The notes under the pieces were generated by a model. That model searched no databases, had not been told where the DNA came from, and saw nothing but the letters and a program-made list of their open reading frames with translations. From Tetradesmus obliquus (taxonomy: Eukaryota > Chlorophyta > Chlorophyceae > Sphaeropleales > Scenedesmaceae): a DNA stretch of 64,000 bases. Shown here one piece after another: positions 6,971 to 62,698 of the stretch; positions within the stretch are counted from its first letter, which is position 1, and every line of letters begins with the position of its first letter. The position numbers and the translations under genes were made by a program. The stretch lies in contig CP126195.1 in NCBI GenBank assembly GCA_030272155.1, positions 1,347,001-1,411,000 on the forward strand, read 5' to 3'.

Positions 6971-9514
6971 ATGCACACGCTGCAGAGCCCGCTTGCAGCA
7001 GCAAGCCGGCAATTGGCAGCGCAACATGCCACACCTCGTTGCTGCTGCAAGCCCAGGAGTATCAGTACTGCCCTTTCTACTTCTTCAGCAGGCTGTGCTG
7101 CTGTTTCAGCAGCACCATCTGTGCTGCTGCCAGTCAGTTGCCATTATGGTCAGCGCCATAAGCAACTGCAGCAGCGGCGCGGCCGCAGCACTGTACGCCG
7201 CGTAATGCAGCAGATGGTGAGTAGTAAAGGGCACCGACACTAGCTTTGCAGGAGTGTTCAGGGCGGCCAGTGGTGGACAGCAGCGTGCCTGGTCAGTGTC
7301 ATTGCTTTCACTTGGCATCAATCGCCTGCAGATCAATTCTGCAGCCTTCAGCAGCGTGCCATGGCCCCAGCACCATCCGCAGTACAGCATCTCGTTGTAA
7401 TTGCACACGCACAGTGCAACCGCTTGCAGGCATCCAGCATGTTCGCAGGAGGCTCTTGCGCGTCATCAACAAAGCAGCTGCCTGCGTCTGACTGCGCATC
7501 TATGCTCGCTGCTTCCCTGTCCCTCTGTCTGTCCTGCAGCAGGGTGTTGACATCAGCCATGCACTGCACCAGCAGAGCTTGCAGCAGCAGAGCCCTGCCT
7601 CGCTGCTGCCGCTGGTTGGCGGGCCAGGCGACATGCTTGTGGACGCAGTGGGCTCCTCACAAGCACTGTCAGTGCTGGTGCAGCAGCCTGTGTACCAGGT
7701 GGGTGGAAGGCCACAGCAAGCAGCTGTCCTGCCTTGCATGCAGCTTTCCTGCAAGCAGCAGCACTTGCAGCGCTTTCCTGCAAGCGGCGATGCATTTCCT
7801 GCAAGCATCCGCTTGCTGTGATGTAGCATCAGCTGTGCGCTCCGTGAGTTGGTTTGTGTGCGGCCTGACAAGTGTGGCCGTGCAACGCCAGCTTCAAGTA
7901 GCAGCTGGTACCTTTCAGCAGCAGTGGTGCATCTTCCAGGCTTTTGCATAGCAGCAGCAGCAACAGGGTCGTCAACCTATACGGCTGCACAGCTAGGGAT
8001 AAGGCATTTGTTCGTTTGTGCCGGCGAACACAGGTAGCCGTGGTAGCAATGCTGCAGCTGCGCTTTACGCGTGCACATGCGCAGTAGCACCTGTAGCAGC
8101 AGCATTTTGCAGCAGCAGCACTGAACAATACCCTGCCTCTGATGCACCTGCTGCTGCTGTTGTCTGTGCCAGGTGGTGGTGCAGTATAAGTCAGCGGGCC
8201 GGCCGCTGCATGATGCGCAGCGCGTGTGGGCACATGTGGGCCACTCAGGCTGGCAGTTCACTGAGGACCTGGAGCTGTTCAGGAGCCCACAGGACCCCAG
8301 CTGCTGGACAGGCATCTACAGGTGTGCAGCAGCAGCTGCAGCAGCAGCAGGCAGCAGGAGCAGGAGAGGGGCAGTGCCGCAGTGCCAGCACTGCTGCAGC
8401 AGCGCAGGGGACTGTTAGATGGTTGTGTTGTTCAGTGAGACTGTTGCTGGATGTACGTATGTTGGGGGCAGTCAAGCCGCACATGCAAGCCGAAGCAGCT
8501 TGCAGCGTCTTTGCACTGCCTTGGCTGACATGCATTGCACGCTGCACGCGCAGTCTCTGTGCGTGCGGCGTAACACTGTTTAGAGCGCGCACAGAGGTTG
8601 CCTGTTCATGCTAAGTAGCTGAGAGTGCTGCTAGTTGACACAGCTTGCATGCTGTACGCTGCTTGGGCACGTTGCTGCGCAGGCTGCAGGCGTGCCGGCT
8701 GGCCAACCCCTCTCACGTGGAGGTGCAGATGGTCTTCAAGGGCCAGATGCCTCAGGGGCACCAGCAGTGGGACAACAACGACGGCAACAACTGGCAGGTG
8801 CGGCGCTGATGTTAGCAGGCTGCCACTGGGGCAGTGGAAGCAGCATGTACACAGCAGCTGCCATTGCAGCATGCGTAAAGGCGGGGGCACCAGCAGTGGG
8901 ACAACAACGACGGCAACAACTGGCAGGTGCGGCTGCGCTGGAGCCGGTTTGCTGCCAGTGCGGCAAACGCAGCAGCAGCAGCAGCAGCAGCAGCAGCTAC
9001 AGGGTGACTTTGTGACAGTGAGGAAGGAGCAGCAGGTACAGCGGTGTTGTGCATGGGTCTGCAGGGTAGTGCGCGGGCCTGTCATATGCTTGCCGTTGCC
9101 GGCAGAAGCAACCGGCAGCAACCAGCATCCGCTCACTCAAGCTGCACAACAGGTCCCAGCATCCGCTCAATCAAGCAACGCTGCTGCTTCTGCTGCTGCT
9201 GCTGCTTTCACTGCTTCAGGTTGTTGCGGAGCTGTCCCACCACGAGGGCATGACGATGCCGCCTGAGGTGTCTCGCAGCTCCATCAGCGGCCTGCTGCTG
9301 CTGCTGCAGGTGCGCGGCAGATCTCAGCAGACGTTTGCTTGCAAGGATCAGCCTCACTGTTTTGTGTGTTCAAGAGCAACGTGTGGCTTGCTGCGCTCTT
9401 GCAAGTTTAAAAGGGGTGTGCTTGCTTCTGTCGCTGTTGCCGTTTGCTGTACTTCAGAGGGTTGCTTGCAGGATGACAACTCCCTGTTTTTGGTCGTCAC
9501 GCTGCTGCTGCTGG

Positions 9515-9550
<36 letters not shown>

Positions 9551-12190
9551 AGGCGTTCAAGCTGCAGGGCTTGCTGACTGGGCAGCAGGAGGAGCTGCTG
9601 CGCATCCTGGCCTGCCAGCATGACACGCGCCTGCTCAAGGCCTACGAGACGGTGAGGATGCTAAACTATCTGCTTTCCTGTTTTTGTTTCTATGGGAAAG
9701 AATTGGTTTGCTGCGGCTGCCAGCATGACACGCGCCTGCTCAAGGCCTAGGAGACGGTGTGTGTGATAAAGCTCTCGTGATGAAGCTTTGCACTGTGCTA
9801 TGCTGCGCTATGGCTTGCTTATGTGTATCATTTCTGCTACCTGCGCACGCTCCTGCACAACTTCAATCAGAGGGGTTCATACACTGTACACTGTTACTCA
9901 GAGTGTGCGACAAGTTCAAATGGCCCCTCTGCTCACACCGCTTTGCATGGTGTGCGTTGCAGGTGCGCGGGTGGGCGGATGATGCAGCGGCGGCTGGCAT
10001 GCTGCTGTCGCAAACAATGTACGCCAACAGGCCAGGCGTGCATGTGGTGCACGTGGCCAGCGAGATGGTGCCGATCGCCAAGGTGGGCAGCACGCGTTTT
10101 TGCTCAATGCAATGTATGCAGAGATGCGCTTCATGCAGTGTATAGGCGCACGCGGGGTGTGAGGCTGTCGGCAGCAGAGCTTAGGTTTTGTTGCTCTGGT
10201 GCTTACTTGTGCCCGCTACTGCTTCCTCTGTATGCTTGCCCCTAGGAGCTGCAGCTGAGTGCCTGCACTGTCGCCTGCTGGCTCCTGGCTTCCAAGCATT
10301 GCTGAGGCTGCTGCTGCACATGCTGATGCCGATGCTGCCTCGCTCACTGTCATTCTGGCAGGTTGGTGGGCTGGGTGACGTGGTGACCAGCCTTGCTCAA
10401 GATCGTTTGAACACTGCCTGACCCTGATGCTGCGGAAGTTGCTGCTGCCCATTGCTGGCTTTCCTGCAGGTTGGCGGGCTGGGTGATGTGGTGACCAGCC
10501 TGGCTGTCAAGCCTACAACACTGCTGACCGCTGCTCCTGCATATGCTGCTGCTGCCTCACTGACACTGGCAGGTGGACGGGCTGGGTGACGTGACCAGCC
10601 TTGCTTATGATCGTCTGAGCACTGCTTCCAACACTGCTGACGCTGCTGCTCCTGCAAATGCTGCTCTCTTGCTTTGTCATTCTGGCAGGTTGGTGGGCTG
10701 GGTGACGTGGTGACCAGCCTGGCCAAGGCCCACCAGGCCAGCGGCACACTGGTGGAGGTGATCATGCCCAAGTATGACTGCGCCAACTACAGGTGTGTGG
10801 GCTGCGCTGTTTGCACGTGTGTGTGTTGGCAGTGTTATGTCGCTTTGATGCCTTTCTGCTGGTCGCATGCTTCTGTCGACATAAGCAATCCGGCCTGCAT
10901 CGTCATTGCTGCTGCCCAGCGAGTGGGGCCTGTAGTACATACTTTGGGCTGGAGTTCCTGCAAGTGATTGCAGCTGTGATAGGTCCCTGTCGGGTGCCTG
11001 ATCTGGCCAGATTGTTCTGCTGGCCCAGCTCATGAAGAGTCCCTGCAAGGCGTTCCATGCACCGCTTTGCTGCTATACCTGCTCACATTCCTGCTGCCGG
11101 CTTGCCTGCTCACAAGTGCGCATGTGTTGTGTTTTATTACCTGCAGCGCCATCGACCGGCTGCGGCGGCTGACCTCCTTCCCTGTGCTGTGGGACGGCGA
11201 GGAGATCACTACGCATGCCTGGTGTGGCGTGGTGGAGGGGCTGCCCGTGTACCTGCTGGAGGCAGAGCAGCCAGCAGCCTTCTTCTGGCGCGGGCAGTTC
11301 TACGGCGAGGTGTGTGCTGTGCTTCTGCTGCTGCTGCTTACTGTCATGCGTGGCAGCAACGCAGCAGCATGTGGCATGTGTATTGTGGCACACAACCATT
11401 TGCGCTTCTTGGGCAAAAATGCAGAAGGAGCGGCTGCTGTGAAATTTTTGAGTTTTGGGGTTAAATTGGGTGGTGGTGGAGAGGGGCTGGTGGGATGCAG
11501 TGGTACTCATGCCGCCGCCGCCGCCGCCGCCGCTGCTGCTGCTGCTGCTGCCGCGCAGGCGGACGACTGTGAGCGCTACATGTTCTTCTCGCGCGCCGCG
11601 CTGGAGTTCCTGCTGGTCATGGACAGGCAGCCTGACGTGCTGCACCTGCACGACTGGCAGAGCGCGCTCGTGGTGCGTGTGTGTGGCGCCTGCGCATTAG
11701 ATGCTTGTTGATGTGTGTCAACGGGGGTCCTCAGCAGAGTTGGCTTGCCAGCACAGGTGCTCACGCACTGCTGCAGGAAGGATGTTGCAGGAAGCCAGTC
11801 GTCTGTTCTCCTACTGATGCTACATCTAGCAGCTGCCGCATGCTGCTGACAACAAGTGGCCGTCTGTTGTCCTGCAGGCGCCGCTGCTGCAGCATGAGTA
11901 CCGCGCGAGAGGGCTGACCCGGCCGCGCTCCCTGCTGACCATCCACAACATAGCATTCCAGGTGCGTACTGGCACTGCATGTGGTAACCAGGCAGCAACA
12001 CGAAGCTGGTTGCTGGGTGGCTCACACCACACCCTGCCGTCACTGCGCATGCAATGCTGCTGCACCTGCGTTGATGCTACGGCCACTGGCAGGTAGTCTC
12101 AAGTGGGTCCTGGCACCTTGTGACGACAACACCGTAGCTTAGCCTGAACTGGATTTGCTGCAGGGCTGCAGCCTGCTCTGCGCGTCTGCA

Positions 12191-12241: not shown

Positions 12242-12343
12242 ACCGTGTCACCTGCAGGGCTGGATGTCGCCTGACATGCTGGTCAAGGCTGGGCTGCAGC
12301 CTGCTATTTGCTCCCGCACACAACACTGGTGCTGCTGCTGCTG

Positions 12344-12381
<38 letters not shown>

Positions 12382-12697
12382 ACCCTGTCCACTGCAGGGC
12401 TGGATGTCGCCCGACATGCTGGCCAAGGCTGGGCTGCAGCCTGCTCTGCGCTTCTGCACTCAACACTGCTGCTCCTGCTGCTGCTGCTGCTGCTACCCTG
12501 TCCACTGCAGGGCTGGATGTCGCCCGACATGCTGGCCAAGGCTGGGCTGCAGCCTGCTCTGCGCTTCTGCACTCAACACTGCTGCTCCTGCTGCTGCTGC
12601 TGCTGCTACCCTGTCCACTGCAGGGCTGGATGTCGCCCGACATGCTGGCCAAGGCTGGGCTGCAGCCTGCTCTGCGCTTCTGCACTCAACACTGCTG

Positions 12698-12732
<35 letters not shown>

Positions 12733-13519
12733 ACCCTGTCCACTGCAGGGCTGGATGTCGCCTGACATGCTGGCCAAGGCTGGGCTGCAGCCTGCTGCTT
12801 TATTTTCTCACCTGAAACTGCTGACCACTGCTCCTGCTCTGCTGCTGCTCTGCTGCTGCTGCTGCTGCTGTATCTACTGCAGGGCTGGATGTCGCCTGAC
12901 ATGCTGGCCAAGGCTGGCTGCAGCCTGCTCTGCGCGTCTGCACCCAAACCTGCTGCTGCTGCTGCTGCTGCTGCTGTGCCATCCGCAGGGCTGGATGTCG
13001 CCTGACATGCTGGCCAAGGCCGGGCTGCAGCCGGAGGCGCTGGCGCAGCCGCACCTCATGCTGGACGACAGCAGGCCGGGCTTCTGGCACGGCCGGCACG
13101 ACGTATCGCTGATGCGTGAGTGGCAAAAACATGCGGCGGCTGGTGTGGCTGTTGTGCACAGCTGTGCTGGGCAAATGTGCCGGGCGAGGGCTGGGGATTT
13201 GAGAGGCGCTCAGGCAGTGTGCAAATGTTGCAATTGCTGTGCGCAGCTGAAGATGCCCGCAGGGGCAGCGCTTGCGGGCATGGCAGTGGCTTGCATGGAC
13301 GTTTCCTGCATGGTAGCAGGGCGACCAGCGCTAGGCACTCCAGAGAATTGCTGGAAGTGTCCCTCATGCGGTGCTTGCTGCTGCTGCCTCCTGTGTTGAC
13401 TTGACCTGCTGCAGGCGGTGGCGTGGTGTTTGCTGACAAGGTGACCACAGTATCGCCCACCTACGCGCAGGAGGTGTATAAGCCAGAGTTTGGCTTCGGC
13501 ATGCAGGTGAGCCTTGCTG

Positions 13520-13554: not shown

Positions 13555-14275
13555 ACCTTCATGGCAAGCCCTGACACCACATGTAGTCGCGCGTCTACGT
13601 TGTAAACTGGCACATGGCACATGGGCGCTGTCCGTTATCATCTGGCAGCTGTTCTGTGCCCGCCTTCAACACACAGGCCGCCACTGCTGCTGCTGCTGCG
13701 CCTCACCGACACTCATCTAATGTATCACATTGTGTCTGTAACATGTAAACTTTCATTTTCTGCAGGCTGTGCTGGGCCGCCACTCGCACAAGTTCAGCGG
13801 CGTGCTCAACGGCATCGACCAGCACATGTGGAGCCCCAGTGACGACCCGCTGCTGCCGCCCTGGGGCCACTACAGCGCAAATGACACACGCGGCAAGGCG
13901 GTGTGCAAGGCCGCGCTGCTGGGCGAGCTGGGCATGCCGCACACAGACCCCGCCACAGCAGAAGGTGCGTTGTGCTGTACGCTGCTGCGAACCAGCTTGC
14001 ACAGTAGATGTGGCGCAAGCAAGCAAGTCTGTGTGGAGCAAGCAAGCAGGGCGGTGTGCAAGGCAGCGCTGCTGGGCGAGCTGGTCATGCCGCACACAGA
14101 CCCGGCCTCTGCAGAAGGTGCGGGTGTCTGAGGTGGCATGTTGCATTGCTGGACACTGCTGCCTCACCGCATGCCGAAGTGGGGCACCATAGCGCGTACT
14201 GCTTGTGGTGAGGGAAAGTGAGTAGCTGACTGCCACAGAAGGATGTGTTGCGCTACTGTTGTCTAAGGCTAACGC

Positions 14276-41955: not shown

Positions 41956-41987
<32 letters not shown>

Positions 41988-42356: not shown

Positions 42357-42389
<33 letters not shown>

Positions 42390-42448: not shown

Positions 42449-42501
<53 letters not shown>

Positions 42502-45500: not shown

Positions 45501-46988
45501 GGCGTTGCATCAGCAGGCGGGCCTGGCTGGCGGTGACCACGTTTCTTTTCGCTGCTGGAGGCGCTGGCTGCCACACATCCAAACAGCCTTATTCTGAATC
45601 GGTTGTGTATGTTCTCTGGTGTTTCCGCAGGCCGCTCAGCAGCAGGCCTGGCTGGCGGCGACGACCTTTCTTTGCTGCTGCTGGAGGCGCTGGCTGCCAC
45701 ACATCCAAACAGCCTTATTCTGAATCGGTTGTGTATGTTTTCTCGTGTTTCCGCAGGCCGCTCAGCAGCAGGCCTGGCTGGCGGCGACGACCTTTCTTTG
45801 CTGCTGCTGGAGGCGCTGGCTGCCACACATCCAAACAGCCTTATTCTGAATCGGTTGTGTATGTTTTCTCGTGTTTCCGCAGGCCGCTCAGCAGCAGGCC
45901 TGGCTGGCGGCGACGACCTTTCTTTGCTGCTGCTGGAGGCGCTGGCTGCCACACATCCAAACAGCCTTATTCTGAATCGGTTGTGTATGTTTTCTCGTGT
46001 TTCCGCAGGCCGCTCAGCAGCAGGCCTGGCTGGCGGCGACGACCTTTCTTTGCTGCTGCTGGAGGCGCTGGCTGCCACACATCCAAACAGCCTTATTCTG
46101 AATCGGTTGTGTATGTTCTCTGATGTTTCCGCAGGCCGCTCAGCAGCAGGCCTGGCTGGCGGCGATGACCTTTCTTTGCTGCTGCTGGAGGCGCTGGCTG
46201 CCAAATTCAAACAGCCTGATGCTGACTTGGCTGTGTCTGTTCTATGCTGTTTCATTTTCGGCAGGCGGCTCAGCAGCAGGCGGGCCTGGCTGTCAGCGAC
46301 GACCTTTCTTTGCTGCTGTCTTGTAAGGCACAAATCCTGTCACACACGCCTGCCATTAGGTGCTGACCAGGCTGTTTGTGTACTTGCTGTGCTGCAGGCG
46401 GTCCAACAGGTGGGCCTGGCAGGCGGTGACGATCTTTCTTCGCTGCTGGAGGCGCTGGCGGCCGTGTTTGGCGTGCGGCCGGGGCTGTGGTATGACGGTG
46501 AAGCGCCCGAGGCGTACCCACACGTCTCCAGCTTCATGAGCTACGTGAGCGTTTCTGTTATGTTACTTTGTTATTGTTATGTTGCTGTCATTGCTATGAA
46601 GCATCCACATAGGGGGCGGTTTATTTGAAGCTGAGACACCCAGATGCTTTGTACGGGGGGTAAGCGACAAGCGAGGTATGGCTGTGATGCGCTTGAAGGG
46701 GGGTAAGCGGGAAGCAAGGTGGTCACTGCCAGTCAGCACACTGAACGGTCAGTGACAGCCCAGCATTGGGAGGGGGGTGGAGTGGCAAGCGACTTTCAGA
46801 AGCGACAGCTTTTGCCTCACTAACGCTCGGTAAGCGGTTGTCACCCCTCCACATAGCAACTGGGTGTCTCAGCTTCAACTAAACCGCCCCCATAGGACAA
46901 CAGGGATGTGCTTGTGTCTTTGCTGTAATGTGTGACTGCTGCAGGCTTCCTATGCTGCACATGACATTCCCTGCAGCACTTGCCGACT

Positions 46989-47030
<42 letters not shown>

Positions 47031-50000: not shown

Positions 50001-53000
50001 TTAATGTGTATCTTCAGCTGCTGACGTGACGGCATGCCTGTTGCTTCTCTGCATGTGTCTGCAGGGATCCCGCCCAAAAGTGGCAGCTTGCAGCAGCGTG
50101 CTTCAAGCACTGCCAGCTGGCGCTAGGCATGCTGGCCACCTGCCCACCCATCACCCCAGAGCTGCTGTCCTGATGATATCAAATTAATGTGTATCTTCAG
50201 CTGCTGACGTGACGGCATGCCTGTTGCTTCTCTGCATGTGTCTGCAGGGATCCCGCCCAAAAGTGGCAGCTTGCAGCAGCGTGCTTCAAGCACTGCCAGC
50301 TGGCGCTAGGCATGCTGGCCACCTGCCCACCCATCACCCCAGAGCTGCTGTCCTGATGATATCAAATTAATGTGTATCTTCAGCTGCTGACGTGACGGCA
50401 TGCCTGTTGCTTCTCTGCATGTGTCTGCAGGGATCCCGCCCAAAAGTGGCAGCTTGCAGCAGCGTGCTTCAAGCACTGTCAGCTGGCGCTAGGCATGCTG
50501 GCCACCTGCCCACCCATCACCCCAGAGCTGCTGTCCTGATGATATCAAATTAATGTGTATCTTCAGCTGCTGACGTGACGGCATGCCTGTTGCTTCTCTG
50601 CATGTGTCTGCAGGGATCCCGCCCAAAAGTGGCAGCTTGCAGCAGCGTGCTTCAAGCACTGCCAGCTGGCGCTAGGCATGCTGGCCACCTGCCCTCCCAT
50701 CACCCCAGAGCTGCTGTCCCGGCCCCCTCCTGGCCTGTCTGTACTGCTCAGCTTGATGGGTGGCAGGCAGCTTGAAAAAGCGCTGCTGCAGCACGTGCTG
50801 GCACCTGGGCAGGAGGAACTAGCGGTGAGCAGTGTCAGCGTTAGTTGCTGTTGTTAGTGACGAGTCAAACATGCGGTCAAGCGTGGTGCTAAGCTTGATG
50901 GGGGACAGGCAGCTTGAGAAGGCGGCAGTAGAATAATAAGAAGCATGCATATTTACAACTCAACACTAGGCTCAACGATAACTACAAATGGTCAATCTGC
51001 CCGCAGGCGTCCATGGAGGTTGGCCCGGAAGGCCCCCCAAGGCAGCAGGCCGTCCTGCAAGGCCTCAAGCTGCTCAACATGGCCCTGGAGTATGACGTTG
51101 CAGACATAAAATCTAAAAAATAAAAACCATAAAACTATAAAACTAAAGTTCAAACTTGGATTTGCCTGCAGGCGTCCATGGAGGTTGGCCCGGAAGGTCC
51201 CCCAAGGCAGCAAGCTGTCCTGCAAGGCCTGAAGCTGCTCAACATGGCCCTGGAGTATGACGTTGCAGCAGCAGAGCAGCTCAGCGCGCTGAGTGTGCGG
51301 GAGCGCGTGGCGCCCCTGCAGGGCCTGCTTGCTGCTAGCCCCAGGCGCCTGGCGGTGCTGCTGCAGTATGTGCTGTATGCTGACACGGATATTCAGCTAG
51401 AGGTGCGTGCAGCAGCTGCTGTGGGATGGTGTTGTGGTTAGGTCATGTGGACAGCTTCGTGTCATGCCTTGATCAGTGGTGGCGGTGCTGCTGCAGTACG
51501 TGCTGTATGCTGACACAGACATCCAACTAGAGGTGCGTGCAGCAGATGATGTGGGGTGGTGTTGTGTAGGCCATGTAATCTTACAGCTGCGTGTCATATT
51601 CAAAGTTGCTGTTGTTTGTTTGCTTCCTCAACCACGCCCCATCTGCGCTTCCGTGCAACTAACTCCCACTTCACACACTTGCAGGCGGTCAAGCTGCTGG
51701 CGCAGCTTGCGGCGCGCCTGCCCAACCTAGTGCAGCTGCTGCAGCCCAACTTTGACGACAGTGAGGCCCTGCTGCTGCGCCAGGGCTGTGGACACAGCCT
51801 GGAGCTGGCGCTGCTGGATCCTGCGGCTGGAGGCAGCGTGAGCAGCGGCATGGCTGCGGCGGCGGCAAGAGCAGAGGAGGCGGCAGGCGCAGGTGAGCGG
51901 CAATATATATGCTTGCGTATAGGGCCCATGTGGCCATACATGTGTCTGGATCCCGCGGCTGGAGGTAGTGTCAGCAGCGGCATGGACAGGCAGCAGGCAC
52001 AGGTGAGCAGGGCTTCATCAGCTGCAGTCCATGTTCTGTGCGCCAGGGCTGCGGCCACTCCCTGGAGCTGGCCCTGCTGGACCCTGCTGCTGGAGGCAGC
52101 GTGAGCAGCGGCATGGCTGTGGCGGCGGCGCGGGCGGAGGAGGCAGCAGGCGCAGGTGAGCAGTGGCTGCATGGGCCGATCGTGACCGTGCATGTGTCTT
52201 GCAAACCTGCTGCGGGTGGTAGCGTGAGCAGTGGCATGGCTGCGGCATCAGGCAAGGGAGCTCCAGGCACAGGTGAGCAGCACTGCATTTGCTGCAGCTC
52301 ACAATATGCGGCCTGCTGCAAAGTAGCTGTAACAAGCTTCCTTGTGCTATGCAATGCCCTGGATTGCCCTCCTCAACGGTTATACCTTGCCCAAACTGTT
52401 GTGCCGCAATTCCGCCCATCCCTGCAGAGCCTGCAGCCACTCCTTCTATGTACACGGGCCGAGCTGCTGCTTGACGTCATGCTGTGTTCTTGATATCTTG
52501 CTGTGTGAATTTCGCCACGCTGTGTGCTCAATCTCACGCTGTGTGCCTGCTGCCATTTCCTGTCTCAAACCAACTATTGCAGAGCCTGCAGCCACTCCTT
52601 CCGACACACGGGCCGAGCTGCTGCTTGACGTCATGCTTGGCAGTCTTGAGGCAGTTGCGCCGCCCTCCCTGGGCCACCTGCTGCTGGGCTTCGACACCAC
52701 TTCAGTGCCTGGAGACTGGTCCAGGTGCGCCTTGCTATTTAGTTTTATGACGAGTCACCGCAGCACCTGCTGTGCATGCGAGGCAGAGTGGTGCATGGGA
52801 ACGTGCTGTCCTGCAAGCATCCTGCAAGTATGCAGTTTGGTCGACCCAGTTTGACCAGTGGCACAGCAGGGACCAGTCTGTCTCTGGATGCTCTACCAAA
52901 GCTGCTTAGCAGGCTGTGTTACTACAGATCGTTACAAATATCACTGTGCTCAGCAAGCTTATGCCGCTGCTGCCGCCACTGCTGCTGCATCACACCTGGG

Positions 53001-56000
53001 GTCCACTGCCTTGCAGGCAAGCTCTGGCTCCCAATGTGGACTTCACTTGCATGTCGGTGCTGCTGCGGGCGCTGCAGGTGCGGCCTGCGCTGCAATTGTG
53101 CCTCCGTTGCTGCTGTCACGACATGCATGCAGCCAAGCCAGATTACTGCTAGCATGTCCTATGAACTTCACTTGCATGTCGGTGCTGCTGCGACTGGCTG
53201 GCATAAGCCAGCTTACTGCTAGCATGTTGTGGCAGCAACTTGAACCCAAATGTGACACCCACCGCTCCAGCAGTGGATCCCTGCACGCTGTCACCCTCAA
53301 ATATGCGAATTAGCTCACCCTGCATTCTTCAACCTTTACGCAAATAACACACTGCTGTGCTGTGTCCTGCAGGCCACACCACTGCAGCGGCTGAAGCCAG
53401 TGCTCTACGCCAAGTGCCTGCAGCTGCTGTACGCTGTAGCAGCAGCACCGCTCACGTGTGAGCCTGTGTTCAGGCTGCTGTGCCCCCCAGAGTCATCTGC
53501 GGTGCTGCTGCCTGCACTGGGTGCGCTGCTACTGGAGCCCCTCACAGCAGAAGACTCAGCAGGCGTGCATGCCCAGGTGAATTTGGGTGAAAGGGTGTTA
53601 CAAAATGTGTTGATATGTTTGCTGTCAGCCCCTGCGCTTCGTATGTTGATGCATGGTCAGCTGTTGCTGCATAGGCAGCCATTTGAATTTGCAAACACGC
53701 GCACCAACGCTCATATGCTGTCCACAGCGTGATCTGTAGGTTAGCTCTGCTCAAGTTTGGTTTGCTACCGTAACACTTCCACCACACAGTTTCCTGATAT
53801 GCGCAACAAAACGCGTTAATGACTGCCGCATCCTATGGTGTGTGTGATGTGCCCGCAGGTGGCTTCACTGCGTCAGCGCGCCTACGTGCATGCATCCTTA
53901 ACCACAGTCACCATATCACACCACCTACCTATCATATCAACCAAACTTGACAGCACCATAACACAGCCCGTCCTGCTGCATCTCACGGGTGATGTGCCTC
54001 ATGTGCGATGCTTGCAGGTGGCATCACTGCGTCAGCGCGCCTACGTGATGCGCCTGTATGCACTCACGCTGCTGCGCTGCGAAGTGCCAGCCATGCTGGA
54101 GCCAGTGCTGGCAGCACTGCTGCTAGACCCTGCTGCAGCAGCAGCAGCAGCTGGGCTGAACGGCCAGGCGCAGCAGCAGGGCCAGCAGCAGAACGGGCTG
54201 TGGTCTGGTGCAGGGCGCTACGACCCTCTGCGTGGCAACTCTATGCCTGCTGCGCTGCTGGCACTGCAGCAGATCTGCAGTTTCACGCTGCAGGTGCGTG
54301 GTTGTGCGTGGATTTTGGTGTTGTATGACACAGAACCTGTCAGCTCTGATGCGCCAAGTCCTGTTAGGAGCATGCCCCATCAAGAGGCCCCTGGAGTGCC
54401 GAGCATTGCCTACAGCACGCGTTGGTGTGCTGTTGCTGGTACTTTGGGTCACGCCCAGCAGCTCTGCTGGTTTGAAGGCCTGGCAGGCGCATCAGCAACA
54501 CTCAACGCCAAGGCCAGTCAGCACCCTGCAACCAAAGCCAGTGCTTTACAGCATCTATGCACAAGGGACATGTCTGCAGCCTGCTGCCGTGTGGAAGTTT
54601 AAAAGGCACCCCGCTGCCGTGCACTCTCACATCAGCTGTGCTTGCTGCGCTGCTGCTGGTGCTGCGCTGCTGCACTTGCTGCCCTGCTGCTCTTGCTGCC
54701 CTGCTGCACTTGCTGCCCTGCTGCTCTTGCTGCCCTGCTGCTCCTGCTGCCCTGCAGGAGCCGAGCCTGAAGGACGTGCCTGCGGAGCTGCTGCAGCTGC
54801 AGCAGGACATGGCGGTTGATGACGTCAGCGTGGCCATGCTGCTGACTCAGCCTGCAGCCATGGAGCTGTGCGGCGTGGTCACGCAGGACGACTACGGTCA
54901 ACCCGTGTTTGACTTTGCGGTGAGCCCTGCTGCTGTGATCAGTTGTATGCTGTCTTGGGGTTTTCGGGCGGCCAGAAGTCGAGCTGCTTGGAGACGAGCT
55001 GTCGGTTGGGCTGTTCAGAAGCAGCGTTGCAGCAGAAGTTGTGTGCAGGAGGCATGTTCAGGAAGCGCTCGAAAAGCCAGTCAAACCCTGCATATGCAGC
55101 ACACCAACATGCGCAGCAACATTCGCCAATGCTTATGGTCCTGCGGGTCAATGGCTTGCTGCACTCGGCGTGCTCAGGCAGCCCTCATTCAGCCAACAAA
55201 ACCCGTGCAGGCCACCACACCACACCATCATCTGCATGGCAACTTGCCAAATAAACCTGCGTGTTTGGTCCTGCCGGTCTGTGGCTGGCTGCTGTCCTGC
55301 AGGTGCTGCAGCGGCTGCTGCATGAGCGCTTTGAAGAGTACCTGGCAAAGACAGGAGGCAGGGGAGGCCCCAGGGCAACCAAAACTATAAACTGCACCAC
55401 ACTGATCAAAACACCTACATAGCAAGCTCGCCAACTTACCTATGCTCCTGGTCCTGCCGGTCTGTGGCTTGCTGTCCTGCAGGTGCTGCAGCGGCTGCTA
55501 CATGAGCGCTTTGAGGAGTACCTGGCAAAGACAGGCGGCAGGGGAGGCCCAGGGGAGCGGCTGGCCCGCGATGCTGTGGCTGCTGCCTTCACCTACGCGC
55601 AGCGGGTCAACGCACATGCACTGGTGGCAGGTGTGTTGCTGCAGGGTGTGCTGGCTGTGTGTTCAGCTTTGCAGGGTGCTGAAATTCCACAATGTTTGCT
55701 GTGTTTTGCGCAAGTGCAACCTCATAAGTACTGAGCAACGGCACCTATAGGTTCTGTGTCATGACTGCATGTATCTTTCAATGTCTGCTCAGCACCTGTC
55801 CTGAGCTGCTCGTGTGTTATTCTGAGCCGCGCATCGCTCAGCATCTGTCCTCGTGGTGCGTCACCGCTTCTGTTGCAACACCTGCAGGCGCCCAACGCGC
55901 TGCTGTGCTGGGTTGGGTCCAAGCCATCGAGGTGGCTTTCACCAAAACCTACAGCCTGGTCAACACACGCATCTGCCCCGGAGCTGGCCCAGAGCTGCTG

Positions 56001-59000
56001 CATGCATGCCTGCTGGGCACGCTGGGGGTGGTCAAAGAGCTTGCAGGAAGACAGGCGGGAGAGCTTGCAGAGACGCTTGCAGGAGCAGCGCGTGTGCTGA
56101 TGAGCAAGCTGCAGGAGCTCGCCAGCAGCAGCTTGAGCTTGGGGCTGCCAGGCGACCCCCTCAGCCAGGTGCGCACAGAATTTGAATGCTGTTACTTTTG
56201 TTGTTTTTGCGGAGTTTGACTGCTATTGTGTTTGACTTCTGCTTTGAGGCTGACTCTTGCAGCTGTGTCCGTAAGTATGCCGGAGCCAAACAAGGACATT
56301 TGCAGGTCTGGAACATACAGCGCCTGCACCTGAATGATGTTGCGTTGTGCTGCTGCGTGCGTTGCTGCCCTGCTTTCATACAGGTGCGACTGCCAGTGCG
56401 CTGCGTGGCGGTGCTGCGGCTTCTGCTGGACTGCCTGCTTGGCGCCAGCAGCCACAAGGGGCTGCGAGCAGAGCTGTATGTCCTGCTGCTGCAGTACCTC
56501 ACGTTCTGCAGGTGGGTGGGCAGCTGCAGCATTGACTGTTCCTGACCAGTGCTAGCAAGCATGTGATGCAGTTACACGCATGAGTAGGGTGAGTTTGTTG
56601 CTTCACACCCCACCTACTGTATCACCTGACATCAAACCATGGTCAACCCTACATGAATATCAACTTACCAATAGCCTGCTTGCATGCAGCCGACTATCTG
56701 TCTCTGTCAACAACATGTTTGCGTGTATGTGTCCTGCAGGGGCAGCAAGCTTGGGGACTGCCCACCTTTGGTGCTGGCCTCCCTCCTGGCAGGTGCAGGC
56801 CCAGGCACCTCAGCAGCACAGCTGGATGCACTGCAGCAGCAGCTGGAGGAGAGCAACGGCAAGCTGCTGCGGCCTCTTGCAGGAGAGCTTGTGGTGGTGA
56901 TGCTGGGAGATGTGCTGACGCCTCCAGAGCGCGGCGGTACTGCTCAGGTGTGTTTGTTTGCTTTTGGCTGCAGCTGGAAGCAGCCACGCAGAGCAGATTG
57001 AGGCGGGAAGGGCACTGACATGTATGCTGTGAGCATAGCAGCGTGCTGCTAGCTTCAGAGCGCCACACGCATGCTGCACTGTACGTTTTCCTTCGCGTCT
57101 GCTGCGGCGACACGTGTGTTGGTACTCTGGTTGCTGCTGCAGCCAGTTTTGCTGCACCTTCTGTCAGCGCTGGTCCTGTGTATCACCGTATTGCATGCTC
57201 CATACTTGGCCTGATGTGTCCTGTATCGCGCCACACATTTGTTGCTACTGCAGGCGGTTGCGCTGCACCTGCTGTCAGCGCTGGTGTCAGCTGACCCTGC
57301 ACCTACAGCGCTGGCAGACGCTCACCATGCTACCGACTAGCGGTTCAACCAACAACATTACGCGCATGCTGCACTGTTCATCCTCACTCTCGTCTGCTGC
57401 TGCGGCCACACGTGTGTTGGTACTCTTGTTGCTCCTGCAGGCGGTTGCGCTGCACCTGCTGTCGGCACTGGTGTCAGCTGACGTATTATGTTTCAGCCTT
57501 TGCTGTTTCACTTTGTCACTTGGTCCGTACCTGGCCTGATGTAAACCACACCGGCCTGGGTTTGCTGCTCCTGCAGGCAGTTGCGCTACACCTGCTGTCA
57601 GCATTGGTGTCAGCAGACCCCGCATCTACAGCACTGGCAGACGCACTGCACAGGAATGACGTGCCGCGCGGTCTGCTGCGCAGCGTAGCCGAGCATGCAC
57701 CGCACATCCTGCTGCAGCCTGCACATAAGGCTCAGGTGAGCCGCAGCGCCTGCTGCAGCTGTTGCATATCAACTTGTACAAAGTTACTTGAAGGAATGAC
57801 ATGCGCTAGCATGGCAGGGCTCGGCAGTACGGACACCTGTTGGTGTGCCAGCATTGTGTGCGCTCACGGGTGTCACTACTGCCCAGCATGGCTGTTGCTG
57901 CTTTTGCATGTGCGCTGCCACTTTTCTTTGCTCTGCCTTTACTTGCCTTTCAAAAGGCTGTCAAAGAGCAAACTTTGAAACACTTGAACTCACACATGAT
58001 GTTGATATGTTGTTTGTAACTGCACTGCCACTGCAACCGCCTCGCAGGCTGCGCTGCTGGTGCTGGAGGCGCAGCTGTGCCTGCTACTGTCCCTGGCAGC
58101 TGCAGGCGGCCCTGCAGCGCGCAAGGGCAGCACCAAGGCTGTTGCAGATGTGGGCGCGCTGTCTTTCCTCAAGGCATGCAAGGCGCTTGACTACACTCCG
58201 GAGCAGCCCAGCAGCCAGCAGCGCCTCAAGAAGAGCGGCGCGCTGCGGTGAGCTACCTGTGTTGTTAGCAGTGCCTGTTTAGAGGTGTGTGCTGCCTGAT
58301 CTGCAACGGTTTGGCACCACTCACTGCTGTACAGAGACGCACAGATAAGTTATGTTACTTCCCTCTCCCTCTCCTTGTCTTTCTGAGCCCATGTTGGCTC
58401 GGTTGCCTATGTGGGGTGGGGGTGTGCATGCACAAAACTGACTGCTGTGGTGGGCTGTTGCAGGTACCGCCTGGTGCACCTGGTGTGCCCTGTGCTGCGG
58501 CTGGTGCTGGCGCTGCTTGCAGGAGCGCCCGGCAGCAGCGGCCTGGCGGAGCAGGCAGCGCAGTTCACGGCAGCACACATGGACCTACTGGCACGTCTGC
58601 TGCAGGAGGCAGCAGCACCAGGTATGCATATGATGCTTGATTGGCGGTGGCATTCTGGAAACTCTCAGCTCCTGTGAGCGTTAGATAGTTATGTGCTGAG
58701 TGGCGTTCACATGCAGAGCTTGCAGGACAGGCGTGCAGCCTCGCGTTCGGTGCAGCCGCACTGGTTGCTGTTTGGTCGCTCATGCAACGCAGGCCAGTGT
58801 TAGGCGAGGGCTGCTGTGGTCGAACAGCTACTTTGCAACTGCGTAGTTCATCTTGAACACACTGTGCCTGCATGCTGTCTGTCTTTGTTCCTGCAGCCAC
58901 ACCTGCATGGTCCCCAGGGGACGAGGAGCTAGAGCAGGCAGCACTCGTTTTCTCTGTCCTCATTCAACACATTCCCCCTTAATGCTGCCTATTGTTTCAT

Positions 59001-61698
59001 CTTGCAGCCACACCTGCCTGGTCCTCAGGGGATGAGGAGCTAGAGCAGGCAGCACTGATGTTTCCTGTCCCAACTAAACACACTGCCCCTCGACGCAACA
59101 CATTATCTCATGATGCTGCCTATTGTTTCATCTTGCAGCCACACCTGCATGGTCCCCAGGGGATGAGGAGCTAGAGCAGGCAGCACTGATGTTTCCTGTC
59201 CCAACTAAACACACTGCCCCTCGACGCAACACATTATCTCATGATGCTGCCTATTGTTTCATCTTGCAGCCACACCTGCATGGTCCCCAGGGGACGAGGA
59301 GCTAGAGCAGGCAGCACTGATGTTTTCTGTCCCAACTAAAGACACTGCCCCTCGACGCAACACATTTTCTCATGATGCTGCCTATTGTTTCATCTTGCAG
59401 CCACACCTGCATGGTCCCCAGGGGACGAGGAGCTAGAGCAGGCAGCACTCATGTTCTCTGTCCCAACGCAACACACTGCCCCTCGATGCTGCCTATCTTT
59501 TTCACTGCAGCCACACCTGCATGGTCCCCAGGGGACGAAGAACTGGAGCAGGCAGCACTAGCAGTCAGCCTGCTTGCAGCACTGCCGGGGGCCCTTGCGC
59601 CACGTGCAGGTAGCGGTGCAGCAGCAGCAGCTGTGTCTGGCGCAGGCGGCGTGGCTGCTGGCGTGCTGGCGGGTTTGCGGCGCGACTTGTGGAGGCTGTG
59701 GCTGGTGCTTGCAGGACATGACCGGCGGGATGGCAGGGCAGTCAGCAGCATTGTGGTGAGTAACAAAGTAACACGTTTCAAAAACCGGACTTTCTGGTGC
59801 TGTCATGGGCAGCAGCTTGCGTGTGCTGCGTTCGCTGGACACAATGCCAAGCAGTTGTAAGCAGTGCTACGTCATACCTGCTCCGCAATGTGCATCAACG
59901 TCTCCTCTGTCAATGTCTTTCTCACCAAACAACGGCATCATCACTACTGCTGCTTCTGCAGGCGCAGTTGCACTCTAGCAAGCAGACAGACGGCAGTGCA
60001 GGCGGGGCCGCACACATGCAGCAGCTGCGGCGCCGCAGCTTGCTGCTGCAGCTGCGCTGCGGCCTCGCGCGGGGGTTGCGAGATGCAGTGGCGCCCGCGA
60101 CAGCAGCGGCAGGCAGCGGCGCCCTTGCTGCAGCGGCTGGGTTGGCTGCTGCAAGCGGCTTGAGTGGAGACCTGCTGGCATGTGTGGGGCACCAAGCACA
60201 GGTGAGCATATCCTCTGTTTATCTTTGAAACTCAGGTCAAGCACAAGCACATAGGGCAGATTGTTGCTGTTTAGGTCAGCACTTTTGGCGACCAACTGCC
60301 ATCAAAAAGGACACAAGAAGCGTGGTTTGCAGCGCAGCAGCCTACTGCTAGCCGACTCCCTGTGTGCTGAGCACACTGCGCAGCTGCTGACACTCCCTCC
60401 GCGTCTGCCTGTTGTTGCCATCTCTTCTGCTGCTGCTGCTGCTGCTTCTACCTTTGCAGCCCACGGTGGATGCCATGGGCAGGCCCACGCTGCTGCTGGT
60501 GCGCGACACAGCAGAGCAAGCCATAGAAGATCTGAAGGCCCTAGCAGTAGAGCTCGAGGACCTGCTGGCTTTCCTGCAAACCCCAGACTCCCTAACAACC
60601 AACGCTGACGTGGCACACAAGCTTGCTGACTGGGGCCCGGGGCTTGCAGGACTGAACCCCAACAGCAAAACCGCCGAATTCGATTCGAATTCAAACCTCA
60701 ACGGCCTGCAGAACGGTAGTTCAGCGCTCGGTAAGGGCGCAGGCGCAGCAGCAGATGCAGCAATGGGGCAGTCCATGGCACTCGTGCTTGCAGGATCTGA
60801 GGGCACAGCAGCGCGTGATGGACGGCTGGCGCTGCGCGGCAGCGCAGCAGCTGCTGCAGCAGGCGCGAGTGGCTTTGGGGTCCTGGATGCTGCTGCTGCA
60901 AGGAGGCTGGCGAGGCAGTGTGCTGCGCGGGGTGCTGCTGCACTGCTGGGCCTGCTGACAAAGCAGCTCAACCTGCTGGAGCAGTGCCTGGCGATTGTGC
61001 TGCTGCACTTTGTGCAGGTGGGTGCTGTTGGTTGGTTGGCAGTGTGGTGATGTGTCGGTTCGCCAGCAGGGCACCATGCATGGCAGCAAGCACGGCAGCT
61101 GCAGCTGTTGTAAAGGAGCTAGCAATGGCAGATTTATGCACAATGCTCGCCACCAGCATCCAGATAGAAAGACCTAAGCAGCTGAAGCATCTTGCAATGT
61201 ACTTGTGGCACCCCCTGCATGAGCTCAGCTAGCTCAGCCTGGTCACACCGCAGCTCATCTGTTCAGTTGCTTTGCTGAAGTCACTTGCCGTGCTGCTCTC
61301 TTCTTGGCCTTTGTTTCAACCTTCCCGCGCAGTGCCTGCCGCGCCCCGACACAGCAGCAGCCATGGCAGCCTCCGAAGGAGGCGGAGCAGCAGACACCTT
61401 CATGCAGGACGGCGCAGCAGCAGCGCCTGCCGACCCATTGCTGCCCAACCCTGGCCCTGAGGCAGCAGCAAAGCTTGGAGCCGCAGAGGACCTCGCGTTC
61501 TTTGCAGGAAAGATGCGGGACGTGTGCTCGGGCAGCGATGGTGCAGTCAGTAGGGTGCGTGCAGTGCTGGAGATGGCAGGCGGAGAGGGAGGGGATGCAG
61601 GAAGGGGTATGCCTGTGGGTGGTGAGGTGTATGTGGAGAGCTGTGAGTCAGTGGAGCTGCTCAACAGGCAGCTCAAAGCTTACCTCGCGAGCCTGTGA
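38618..61698 (+). CDS. NUP205: Scaffold nucleoporin NUP205/NUP192
   Basis: Large alpha-solenoid of the nuclear pore inner ring. 35 exons join without a phase conflict to 2252 residues (family about 1700-2100). Exons: 38618-38746, 39142-39240, 40060-40134, 40371-40506, 41106-41275, 41990-42082, 42515-42653, 43298-43456, 43966-44311, 44858-45131, 46398-46544, 47052-47239, 47521-47658, 48326-48484, 49099-49208, 49565-49775, 50614-50824, 51172-51402, 51685-51892, 52583-52724, 53017-53077, 53373-53576, 54018-54293, 54758-54919, 55483-55630, 55888-56168, 56384-56511, 56740-56947, 57577-57735, 58048-58247, 58464-58621, 59511-59755, 59962-60201, 60460-61017, 61333-61698. Family marks: N-terminus MDNYQQLWQLVQQVVPG; GFSAVVALAWGL; the conserved centre LLAQINEVEARQEEYTESLAF (aa about 790-812); LEYWCP-like region absent. 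Exon 10 adds a Gly/Ala-rich linker. About 20 exons have partial tandem copies. Confidence 0.93.
39241..40059 (+). other. NUP205 intron 2 with Ala/Gln-rich open frame
   Basis: Between exons 2 and 3 (both phase 0) lies a frame open for 120 codons (39279-39641), rich in CAG/GCA repeats (QQAALARAGVGASS). I treat it as intron because exons 2 and 3 join directly and the protein family continues smoothly across them. It could be a cassette exon but I see no matching donor. Confidence 0.5.
40297..40370 (+). repeat. (CTG)~21 tract at NUP205 exon 4 acceptor
   Basis: The longest pure CTG tract on the sense strand, ending CTGCCACAG at the acceptor of exon 40371. Read as protein in other frames it gives poly-Leu, poly-Cys or poly-Ala artefacts. 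Confidence 0.9.
40612..40662 (+). repeat. Copy of NUP205 exon 4 end
   Basis: Repeats LDQLEVGQAGEAE and following bases from the end of exon 40371-40506, but the donor has decayed (GAAAGTGGGC instead of GAAGGTGAGC). Confidence 0.8.
40795..41105 (+). repeat. Two 152-bp upstream copies of NUP205 exon 5 start
   Basis: The acceptor CATGCAG plus GDMEGMAAAGDGPSQALA occur at about 40797, 40951 and 41103 (true). The units include an AT-rich block (ATTTATAACATTAACAACAG) that stands out in this GC-rich region. In the first two the exon reading breaks after ALA into the AT-rich block; only the third goes on to VLMEQQPLLEVVVRFNEG. Confidence 0.9.
41405..41750 (+). repeat. Two downstream copies of NUP205 exon 5 end
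   Basis: LEVVVRFNEGLLRQSSNSRN through SRLVAVIQ with the CAG/GTGCGGC donor is repeated at 41408-41508 and 41640-41738, separated by about 230 bp, after the true end at 41275. With the upstream array, exon 5 is flanked by start copies on its left and end copies on its right. Confidence 0.9.
42156..42514 (+). repeat. NUP205 exon 6 end copy and three exon 7 start copies
   Basis: 42160-42195 repeats the end of exon 6 (TWYTTQ, CAG/GTGCGGCTGCCGCAG). Then the start of exon 7 (ERGELCRALLY, after CAG) appears at about 42229, 42319 and 42411 before the complete exon at 42515. (CTG)n tracts separate the later copies. The third copy has lost a base (GACGCGGCG), shifting frame. Confidence 0.88.
42715..43050 (+). 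repeat. Downstream copies of NUP205 exon 7 end
   Basis: PPDLAELLGLLDSLAGRLKE and KGGPG with a GTGCGG donor occur at 42718-42794. A truncated copy lies at 42815-42864 (AELLGLLEGQRRPR/GTGGGT), and a third fragment at 43008-43045. The first copy is in frame with the true exon end through the intron, so intron retention would give an in-frame duplication. Confidence 0.85.
43710..43752 (+). repeat. Upstream copy of NUP205 exon 9 start
   Basis: CATTGCAGTCGTGGAGGCTA and GGATGGCTTC duplicate the acceptor and first codons of the exon at 43966 (TGCAG/TCGCAGAGGCTAAGGATGG). Confidence 0.75.
44383..44680 (+). repeat. Two downstream copies of NUP205 exon 9 end
   Basis: 44390-44456 repeats RMVYRLLTEMLEF and the AACCGCAG/GTGAGGG donor. 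44546-44672 repeats a longer stretch from LLGSAAF-LEPEEGHHHLCAR to the donor. Intron-like flanks (GGGGTTTGGGTAGGGGC, TGTGCTTGAGCCCTT) are repeated with them. Confidence 0.88.
45498..46397 (+). repeat. 126-bp tandem array: seven decoy acceptors of NUP205 exon 11
   Basis: The acceptor and start of exon 11 (AQQAGLAGGDDLSLLLEALA-like) occur with GCAG at 45498, 45627, 45753, 45879, 46005, 46131 and 46261, then complete at 46394. Five copies in the middle are almost identical with a period of exactly 126 bp; the outer ones are diverged. None of the seven has a donor before the next unit. Because 126 is a multiple of three, long open frames run through the array on both strands; they are artefacts. 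Confidence 0.95.
47325..47940 (+). repeat. Partial copies around NUP205 exons 12 and 13
   Basis: 47332-47362 is a short copy of exon 12 (ELLHFTWRKLL). After exon 13 (ends 47658), copies of its end (AALLVAYLDLLG, GG/GTGAGT) occur at 47773-47812 and 47880-47938; the latter also includes MPAGDAALLV. The last has CGG in place of GGG at the donor. Confidence 0.85.
48150..48740 (+). repeat. Partial copies around NUP205 exon 14
   Basis: Upstream: 48153-48233 (TGCAGGCCGCATCATTCGCC; RIIRQGSKEEVRAVLQGLER) copies the start of exon 48326. Downstream: 48535-48600 (QLMCRGVQSCVTAAVYQ) and 48648-48738 (LLGGLPLYEPLLQLMCRGV and donor TTCAG/GTGGGG) copy its end. The polarity matches the other arrays. Confidence 0.88.
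48922..48985 (+). repeat. Upstream copy of NUP205 exon 15 start
   Basis: CAGGTGCCCGGCCAGCCTGG and CGCTTCAAGCAGCTTGCACC duplicate the start of exon 49099 (CLASLARFKELAPRLL). Confidence 0.85.
49879..50613 (+). repeat. 183-bp tandem array: four decoy acceptors of NUP205 exon 17
   Basis: CAGGGATCCC occurs at 49879, 50062, 50245, 50428 and (true) 50611, an exact period of 183 bp. Each copy has acceptor plus 35 codons (DPAQKWQLAAACFKHCQLAL to ITPELLS) followed by TGATGA. The complete exon instead reads LLSRPPPGLSVLL. The first copy is the most diverged (CTCAAAAGTGG, CATGCTTC). Others differ at one or two bases. Use of any decoy would hit the in-frame stop, since none has a donor. Confidence 0.95.
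51000..51545 (+). repeat. Copies on both sides of NUP205 exon 18
   Basis: Upstream 51004-51108 repeats acceptor plus ASMEVGPEGPPRQQAVLQGL and onwards to EYDVA. Downstream 51478-51540 repeats AVLLQYVLYADTDIQLE with the GAG/GTGCGTGCAGCAG donor. The true exon is 51172-51402. Confidence 0.9.
51944..52278 (+). repeat. Three downstream copies of NUP205 exon 19 end
   Basis: Copies of LDPAAGGSVSSGMAAAA and the GCAG/GTGAGC donor occur at about 51948-52006, 52042-52156 (longest, from RQGCGHSLELALL) and 52205-52274, after the true end at 51892. Lengths and divergence differ between copies. Confidence 0.9.
52424..52490 (+). repeat. Upstream copy of NUP205 exon 20 start
   Basis: TGCAGAGCCTGCAGCCACTC and GGGCCGAGCTGCTGCTTGAC duplicate the start of exon 52583 (EPAATPSDTRAELLLDVML), with a few changes. 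Confidence 0.85.
53155..53215 (+). repeat. Copy of NUP205 exon 21 end
   Basis: ATGAACTTCACTTGCATGTC GGTGCTGCTGCG-type sequence repeats NVDFTCMSVLLR of exon 53017-53077; the copy diverges at the donor (CGACTGGCTGGC). A flanking CCAGCTTACTGCTAGCATGT is also duplicated. Confidence 0.8.
53855..53895 (+). repeat. Upstream copy of NUP205 exon 23 start
   Basis: CGCAGGTGGCTTCACTGCGT and CAGCGCGCCTACGTG copy the start of exon 54018 (VASLRQRAYV). Confidence 0.85.
54650..54757 (+). repeat. 15-bp degenerate repeat before NUP205 exon 24
   Basis: TGCTGCCCTGCTGC(A/T)CT units repeat about six times up to the acceptor at 54757. This is a pyrimidine/CTG-rich acceptor region that has grown by 15-bp slippage. 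Confidence 0.75.
55296..55380 (+). repeat. Upstream copy of NUP205 exon 25 start
   Basis: Acceptor CTGTCCTGCAG and VLQRLLHERFEEYLAKTGGR at 55300-55377 precede the true exon at 55483; the copy ends GGCCCCAGGG where the exon has GGCCCAGGGG, a one-base shift. Flanking GTCCTGCCGGTCTGTGGCT is duplicated too. Confidence 0.9.
57135..57490 (+). repeat. Three upstream copies of NUP205 exon 29 start
   Basis: CAGGCGGTTGCGCTGCACCT-type sequence (AVALHLLSALVSA) occurs at about 57140 (diverged), 57252 and 57438 before the true exon at 57577. The 57252 copy extends furthest (to LADA-). Flanks containing CACACGTGTGTTGGTACTCT are repeated. Confidence 0.88.
58891..59510 (+). repeat. 131-bp tandem array: five decoy acceptors of NUP205 exon 32
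   Basis: Acceptor TTGCAG plus ATPAWSPGDEELEQAAL occurs with exon-like starts at 58897, 59008, 59139, 59270 and 59401, and complete at 59511. Three consecutive intervals are exactly 131 bp (59008 to 59401); the outer ones are 111 and 110 bp. Intron filler (CATTATCTCATGATGCTGCC) is shared by the 131-bp units. The second copy has a Leu for Met-type change (CCTGCCTGG), others differ at GAT/GAC. Confidence 0.95.
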
Positions 61699-62698
61699 GC
61701 GAGTGTGCCACAAGCTACGAAACTACTGTGAACAGGCTCGTACGCAAGAGCTGCTGCTGCTGCCAGTGTACGTATTGCCAAAGCCAGGGTCTGGTTGCGT
61801 TCGCACGGAAGGGCTGCTTTTTCACAGGCGGCTGTGGAGTGGTCAGTCGTGTACGGCGCGTGGGAGCTGGCGCGGCTGACTTGGCATTTCCTGCAGTGCT
61901 ACACCAGTAGTGCAGCACAGTCAGCGAGGTGTCTGTTGAGGGCTGCGAGTGGATTGAGCTGCTCAGCAGGCAGCTCAAGGCTAACCTGGCAAGCCTGTGA
62001 AAGCATGTGTACAGTTTTCTGCACAAGAGCTGCTGCTGCTTGTAACTGTGCTTTGACTTTTGCCGGGCAGGCTTGCCATGCAGTATGCTCAATGATATTG
62101 TTGGGGCTTGTCCAGCCTGCTGCAGGCATTTGGGAAGTGCAGGCTGCAGAACAGTGTGTAAATTTCAGACGGCGTATTACGATCGCCTCTTGTGGTGTAC
62201 TGCTGGTCAGAACATGGCATGCAAGCCGTTGCACGAGGGATGGGACAGTGCAAGCCTATTGTTGGAAGGCAGTTTTATGGTATTGTGCAACACTGTAGCG
62301 AGAGGGCATGCCGCACAGGCTTTACAGGTGTATGGACAAGTGCTGATCAGCAGCAGCAGCAGCAGCAGCAGCAACCAATGGATCTCAGCATCACTACATG
62401 GGCAGGTTAAACCTGCTGGCTGGTGTCCGTCGAGTCAACCTAATATTTTCTCAACCTGTTGTCAGTGACACACAAAGCAATGACATGCTGCTGGACGGCA
62501 TCAGATCAGTGTTAACAAAGTTGTCACCAATGATGCGTCAGTTGTTACCAATGCCGAGTCAGTACCACGGCTGCCAAACATGCACAACAACAGTGAATCC
62601 TGTGAAACTTCAGGCTGCGGCAGCCACTTGGCATCAGCACATGTGCTTGTACAACGTAACTCATGATTAGGGTACATCCAGTGCAGGCGGAGGCGATG
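61699..62698. other. Region between NUP205 and the STIG1-like gene, with a copied gene end
   Basis: 61915-62000 is a diverged copy of the end of the last NUP205 exon (EGCEWIELLSRQLKANLASL, stop TGA); the true end is 61620-61698. Flanks (AAGAGCTGCTGCTG) are repeated too. The rest, about 62000-62698, has a (CAG)n run at 62345-62372 and no gene I can support. It holds the convergent 3' ends of both genes. Confidence 0.6.

Follow-up and report, generated by a model that had tools for sequence, protein, structure and literature searches.

The duplication of segments inside genes, or internal gene duplication, was reportedly treated by Gao and Lynch in 2009. In the part of PMC4974935 that cites those authors, it is described as commonly observed. 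Excerpts of other papers describe further relatives: small tandem duplications are presented as a product of break repair, with fill-in by Pol alpha-primase/CST, and as the commonest human insertions under 100 bp (PMC8355091); direct repeats of 4-30 bp are reported near splice sites or intron borders (Rogers & Bendich 2025, PMC11782384); and introner elements are characterized as families copied between genes (PMC9860276). Compared with these excerpts, the exon-end copies described here in the green alga Tetradesmus obliquus have a familiar side in each case. As in internal gene duplication, local direct duplications occur inside genes at a frequency above chance, exon-intron parts included. 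Here, however, they are very frequent, consist mostly of partial exon ends in existing introns, often lose similarity at the splice site, and have produced neither a new protein repeat nor a new intron in the two genes that were checked. They share tandem duplication across or near splice signals with the intron gain described for potato RdRp (PMC4974935, as excerpted), but existing introns lengthen here and the two genes checked have no new intron. Like the small duplications of PMC8355091 they are short, direct and tandem and form a frequent mutation class, whereas in the alga the units lie a median of 228 bp apart and many copies are not contiguous. PMC11782384 likewise deals with direct repeats at the borders of introns; unlike those, the profiled algal copies match 23-90 exon bases, sit inside a single intron and in some cases form arrays. 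Introners likewise add intronic sequence with splice signals, but three DNA queries from the alga (341-501 bp) matched their own locus only. Among the matches listed by our literature search, the titles and abstract openings contained no report of pervasive intronic exon-end copies in Tetradesmus, Scenedesmus or other algae, of exon-end copies this dense in the introns of one genome, or of a splice-site boundary of similarity.

The window, meaning the whole 64,000-nucleotide stretch of DNA that was analyzed, is C5:1347001-1411000 in a genome of 104.66 Mb in 17 contigs of 3.1-11.1 Mb. For comparison we sampled 250 kb outside it (0.24% of the genome) in 25 stretches, of which 17 were taken one per chromosome at 3.0 Mb, five at random and three from chromosome 5, two of these next to the window; with the window this makes 314 kb. 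Gene models came from a home-made exon predictor, which gave 603 introns in the 314 kb (median 229 bp). The predictor is itself misled by copies, and exon and copy counts are therefore approximate. On inspection of the sequence, modelled exon 46009-46232 probably belongs to the array of copies of the exon at 46398, and 113 predicted exons in the 314-kb sample were judged to be copies of a longer neighboring exon, a number that may include true coding repeats. Pfam matches identify window genes as TruA (PF01416, 1.8e-19) and Nup192/205 (PF11894, 1.2e-11), and the identity of the starch synthase gene is backed by a PDB match.

In the window, 28 of the 93 modelled exons have an end copied into the adjacent intron, with 72 copies in all (Table 1). 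The sequence-only reading that preceded this analysis had claimed more than half of the exons, which neither this share nor that in NUP205 (19/39) confirms. Its estimate of about 50 copies in NUP205 was close, since we counted 46 (47 in a merged gene model, one of them before 38,000), and self-BLAST returned repeats at the places where it had seen copies, including 12157-13063 in the starch synthase gene and 45510-46463, 49829-50719 and 58853-59559 in NUP205. It had also taken the pattern for a feature of the genome. Indeed, outside the window 73 of 387 exons and 23 of 38 gene models have exon-end copies, and at least one duplication cluster occurs in 22 of the 25 stretches, on 15 of the 17 chromosomes sampled; three stretches (L005, L007 and L011) have no cluster. 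A pattern restricted to this contig, which would have refuted the sequence-only reading, is therefore not what the sample shows. The densest stretch sampled, C8:3000001-3010000, holds 15 duplication clusters in 10 kb, with 41% of its bases in local duplications.

Table 1 Exon-end copies in the window (positions counted from its first letter)
Feature	Position	Strand	Remarks
Starch synthase exon with donor-side copy at 8884-8926	8683..8797	+	exon part 43/43 identical; downstream intron flank ~53%
Donor-side copy of the end of exon 9472-9651, with in-frame stop	9711..9756	+	
Six acceptor-side copies (intron tail, AG, exon start) of starch synthase exon 12989-13115	12258..12944	+	unit ~113-140 bp
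Donor-side copy of exon 13766-13964	14046..14117	+	
Seven donor-side copies of TruA exon 25498-25703	24032..25398	-	
Two acceptor-side copies of TruA exon 25498-25703	25918..26199	-	
NUP205/Nup192-like gene	38616..61694	+	39 modelled exons, 19 with copies, 46 copies; PF11894
Two acceptor-side copies of exon 41106-41275	40800..41006	+	
Two donor-side copies of exon 41106-41275	41405..41733	+	
Acceptor-side array of ~6 copies, 126-bp unit	45510..46318	+	all probably from exon 46398-46544 (as read from the sequence)
Two donor-side copies of exon 48347-48484	48536..48735	+	
Four acceptor-side copies of exon 50614-50824	49882..50536	+	183-bp unit, ~98% identical
Acceptor-side copy of exon 51172-51402	51007..51103	+	
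Five acceptor-side copies of exon 59511-59755	58897..59449	+	~131-bp unit

Exon ends were scored against the adjacent intron at two thresholds. With ends of short exons or short introns left out (1206 reduced to 767), 94 of 767 match at a score of at least 20 (29/188 in the window, 65/579 outside), compared with 0.07% when the intron comes from another locus and 0.13% when the same intron is reverse-complemented. When predicted exons that are copies were removed, 743 ends were kept, and 113 of these match at score 22 (donors 65/375, acceptors 48/368; window 37/161, outside 76/582). Self-BLAST of the window yielded 94 local direct repeats with a spacing below 2.5 kb. In the whole sample, direct and inverted repeat pairs within 2 kb stand at 398:3, and local direct duplications make up 21.4% of the bases in the window and 11.9% of those in the 250 kb sampled elsewhere. 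The proposal that introns grow by duplication is partly upheld: introns with a copy have a median length of 520 bp (n=93) versus 281 bp without (n=315), although longer introns also have more room for copies. At 34817-35054 of the window, a 51-bp tandem repeat (51 being a multiple of three) lies inside a modelled exon and gives a repeated GSYGSMRHLLQDS-like peptide.

The exon end is reached within 3 nt by 94 of the 113 best copies, of which 96 were profiled and 17 omitted (short of the exon end, or with too short a flank). As had been anticipated, the copies differ in age, with exon-part identity of 70-100%, frameshifts in 29/96 and stops in 7/96, and an intact extra exon is almost absent. Only 8 of the 96, counting exact abutment, have a second splice dinucleotide at the far end; they thus fall short of the complete exon with acceptor and donor that defines tandem exon duplication, and a role as complete cassette exons is unsupported. 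Frameshifts and stops imply that the copies are not kept as coding sequence, and coding-type selection on them was rejected on account of the frameshifts. Differences from the exon lie at third codon positions in 282 of 528 cases (128/217 in copies whose intron flank is related to that of the real junction, 154/311 in the others), close to the half predicted for a drifting copy when constraint acts on the exon alone. At the three codon positions in turn, substitution rates are 0.053/0.041/0.136 with related flanks and 0.094/0.073/0.165 with unrelated ones. Across loci, the third-position share is slightly more variable than a binomial would give (P 0.046 for all 88 loci with differences; 0.048 and 0.29 in the two classes). 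In the copy at 51007..51103, all four differences in 90 profiled exon bases are at third positions. Polarizing the changes through multi-copy arrays was undecisive; sequential births likewise raise third-position counts.

Splice signals are largely retained in the copies, GT in 90/106 on the donor side and AG in 74/86 on the acceptor side (164/192 together). The splice site scores no more than 1 nat below the real one in 120/192, and 74 exon ends in the 314-kb sample (46 donors, 28 acceptors) have a copy site of this strength. An open in-frame product is predicted for only 14/192. Judged by their sequence, the copy sites would either be efficiently rejected by splicing or lead to faulty mRNAs that are destroyed. 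Several introns have long (CTG)n runs directly before an acceptor or acceptor copy, for example at 12192-12241 and 40301-40365 of the window.

The sequence-only reading had assumed that splicing ignores the copies, and this was borne out in ctpA and starch synthase, the two genes in which it could be checked. The ctpA exons at C3:3735946-3739131 encode 142 residues identical to residues 247-388 of the photosystem II D1 protease (1fc6/1fc7), which we take to be the Scenedesmus (Tetradesmus) obliquus protein. An acceptor copy starts at position 804 of stretch L032, upstream of the true exon at about 895. The solved chain reads GGGL (to residue 243), residues 244-246 and then GVNVARML from 247. 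Since the upstream exon encodes GGGLFPAG and the chain resumes at 247, there is no room for the copy in the protein. In the starch synthase gene, a 250-residue product of the complete exons alone aligns over its full length with starch synthase 4 (6gne, E 4e-69), with no insertion at HNIAFQ/GWMSP, the site of the six acceptor copies; a single 6-residue gap lies farther on, away from this junction. Skipping of the copies is thus supported by exact protein evidence at one ctpA junction and by homology evidence at one starch synthase junction. At these two junctions no new intron has arisen at the duplication, and the protein continues across a single copy-holding intron. On the basis of intron length, PMC4378016 (as excerpted) proposes that Volvox and Chlamydomonas splice by intron definition; in its simple form, this model can hardly accommodate the skipping of several upstream acceptors, each with a tract and AG of its own. 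A second Peptidase_S41 (ctpA-like) gene, at C5:5396219-5399968, has exon-like stretches that recur in six-frame translation, KEVKLRREKVALSPLYYTALQ and GKGRIQSVYEL twice each.

Placement relative to junctions was assessed by moving the duplicated pairs to random positions within their stretch. Junction-spanning pairs number 154 versus 159 expected, so the targeting of junctions by duplication is unsupported, as is the claim of a special mode of duplication across them. Exon-exon pairs number 14 versus 22.5 expected, a deficit that, if real, fits selection against duplication inside exons; intron-only pairs number 89 versus 114, and pairs joining part of an exon to other sequence 104 versus 55. 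Short junction-spanning pairs reach 98 versus 86 expected, a count attained in 27 of 200 null runs. Where the similarity stops is another matter: it ends at the exon end in 59/280 short pairs (23.3 expected), at the junction from the intron side in 6 (23.6 expected), and at the junction in 11 of the 29 short pairs of at least 95% identity (2.4 expected). Spanning at a near-random frequency, together with this pile-up at the exon end, implies that duplications fall anywhere and that the exon half stays recognizable. That similarity should stop precisely at the exon end so often is not easily accounted for by tandem duplications that simply decay. Clean tandem duplication is shown for part of the pairs only. 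At 95% identity or above, 24/33 pairs do not abut and 9/33 have an alignment length at least equal to the spacing; some of the non-abutting pairs are non-neighboring members of arrays or are cut by masked repeats. The farther of the two copies of exon 48347-48484, at 48645-48735, is more similar than the nearer one (96% over 90 nt, with an unrelated flank), an order that simple tandem duplication would not directly produce. A query with this locus found no match outside it.

The intron flank of the copy is related to that of the real junction in 46 of the 96 profiled copies and unrelated in 50, a sorting that uses a chance threshold; fixed score cuts make 47-59 of the 96 unrelated. The exon parts of the flankless copies have an unmasked identity of 0.70-1.00 (median 0.90; below 0.80 in five). 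At donors, identity is about 0.9 in the exon near the junction and about 0.65 from the sixth intron base, with unrelated introns at 0.55, and the drop at acceptors is gentler. The identities in this junction profile, in the flank profile and in a first version of the class table come from repeat-masked sequence; the class table was then redone unmasked. From the most similar class (at least 95% identity) to the least, the unmasked share with unrelated flanks is 10/26, 10/20, 12/22, 9/16 and 9/12, and by masked identity class it is 12/27, 11/21, 12/22, 7/14 and 8/12. At an exon identity of at least 0.97, the median intron-side identity is 0.75 for exon-copy pairs and 0.95 for copy-copy pairs. 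Between copies, too, the 25 nt that come from the exon resemble each other more closely than the 25 nt that come from the intron, at 43/46 loci. A paralogue as the source of the unrelated flanks was rejected, the two loci queried having no match outside the locus. Clustered differences, which partial conversion would be expected to leave, looked strong as proof of conversion at first and became weak after trimming and neutral simulation (mean z 0.60 and 0.48, versus 0.13 in the simulation).

We hold with moderate confidence that local duplication, the skipping of copies by exon recognition and exon-driven homogenization together account for the copies. Local direct duplications are common in the sampled sequence, and their units often cross exon-intron junctions by chance because exons and introns are short. 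A crossing unit leaves the real exon complete and places a partial exon end with its splice site in the adjacent intron, where internal units can then multiply into arrays. The copies thus look like side products of frequent short local duplication that the genes tolerate. Splicing would take the outermost, complete exon and skip the copies, as seen in ctpA and starch synthase and as we infer for the remaining genes. This points to exon definition, in which an acceptor copy would be passed over because no donor stands behind it. In the weakest step, the neighboring exon would repeatedly overwrite the exon half of the copy, by gene conversion or renewed templated copying, while the intron flank drifts freely and fast, so that similarity often ends at the splice site. 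Homogenization by the exon is our preferred, though unproven, reading of the flank anomaly, and fast introns explain part of it. A further-reaching form strikes us as doubtful: exon ends would act as masters that reseed or refresh intronic copies in tracts ending at the splice site, and the spliceosome would reject near-perfect upstream acceptors through exon recognition. If true, such recognition would run counter to the proposal for short-intron green algae.

Plain neutral local duplication with fast introns, with no conversion and no special rule, is a serious contender that we nevertheless think rather unlikely. On that account the exon half remains recognizable for longer, since selection acts on one of the two partners and the turnover of introns is 2-3 times faster. 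The random rate of junction-spanning pairs, the near-neutral retention of GT and AG and the climb of the flankless share with divergence are all in its favor. Equal-rate neutral decay, in simulations that start from exon ends of the alga itself, leaves 1-9% flankless at an identity of at least 0.88. With introns three times faster and more indels, the simulation gives a flankless share of 0.21-0.27 at 95% identity or above, going some way toward the 0.38-0.44 observed. At 0.88-0.92, however, the same model overshoots, with 0.79-0.91 against 12/22 observed. The observed rise with age is much gentler than in this model, although a mixture of intron rates could approach the data. The excess of highly similar short pairs that end at the junction is a further difficulty for it.

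It is improbable, in our judgment, that the copies come from, or were reshuffled with, diverged haplotypes, so that their differences are allelic and the introns of the haplotypes were already unalignable. Several copies do differ at third positions only (e.g., 0/0/5 at position 1165 of stretch L023 and at 31259 of the window), and flanks are unrelated where donors are still good, both of which suit such an origin. Yet introns should normally still align at the third-position divergence of the intact copies (about 0.14-0.15), and the two such loci that were queried have no match outside the locus. We give very little credence to the copies as functional RNA elements, that is, splicing decoys or poison sites with selection on the exon end and splice site. 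The many copy sites about as strong as the real ones (120/192), the conservation of the exon half relative to the flank and the rarity of an open in-frame product, which would make their use a poison event, are what such elements would show; against this, 29/96 copies have frameshift gaps, GT and AG are lost at a near-neutral rate, and about one-fifth of the sampled off-window exons is many for individual function. Assembly artefact is hardly credible, for although the exact number of copies in near-identical arrays such as 49829-50719 (~98%) is difficult to establish, the graded divergence, unrelated flanks, varied unit lengths and occurrence on 15/17 chromosome-sized contigs speak against it.

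These results carry a warning for annotation, in that gene predictors will take the copies for exons. They also suggest that intron growth is a side effect of a mutational process. The copies amount to replicated natural experiments in which nearly identical splice sites compete, at 74 exon ends, and they let RNA-seq ask whether exon or intron recognition operates in a short-intron alga.
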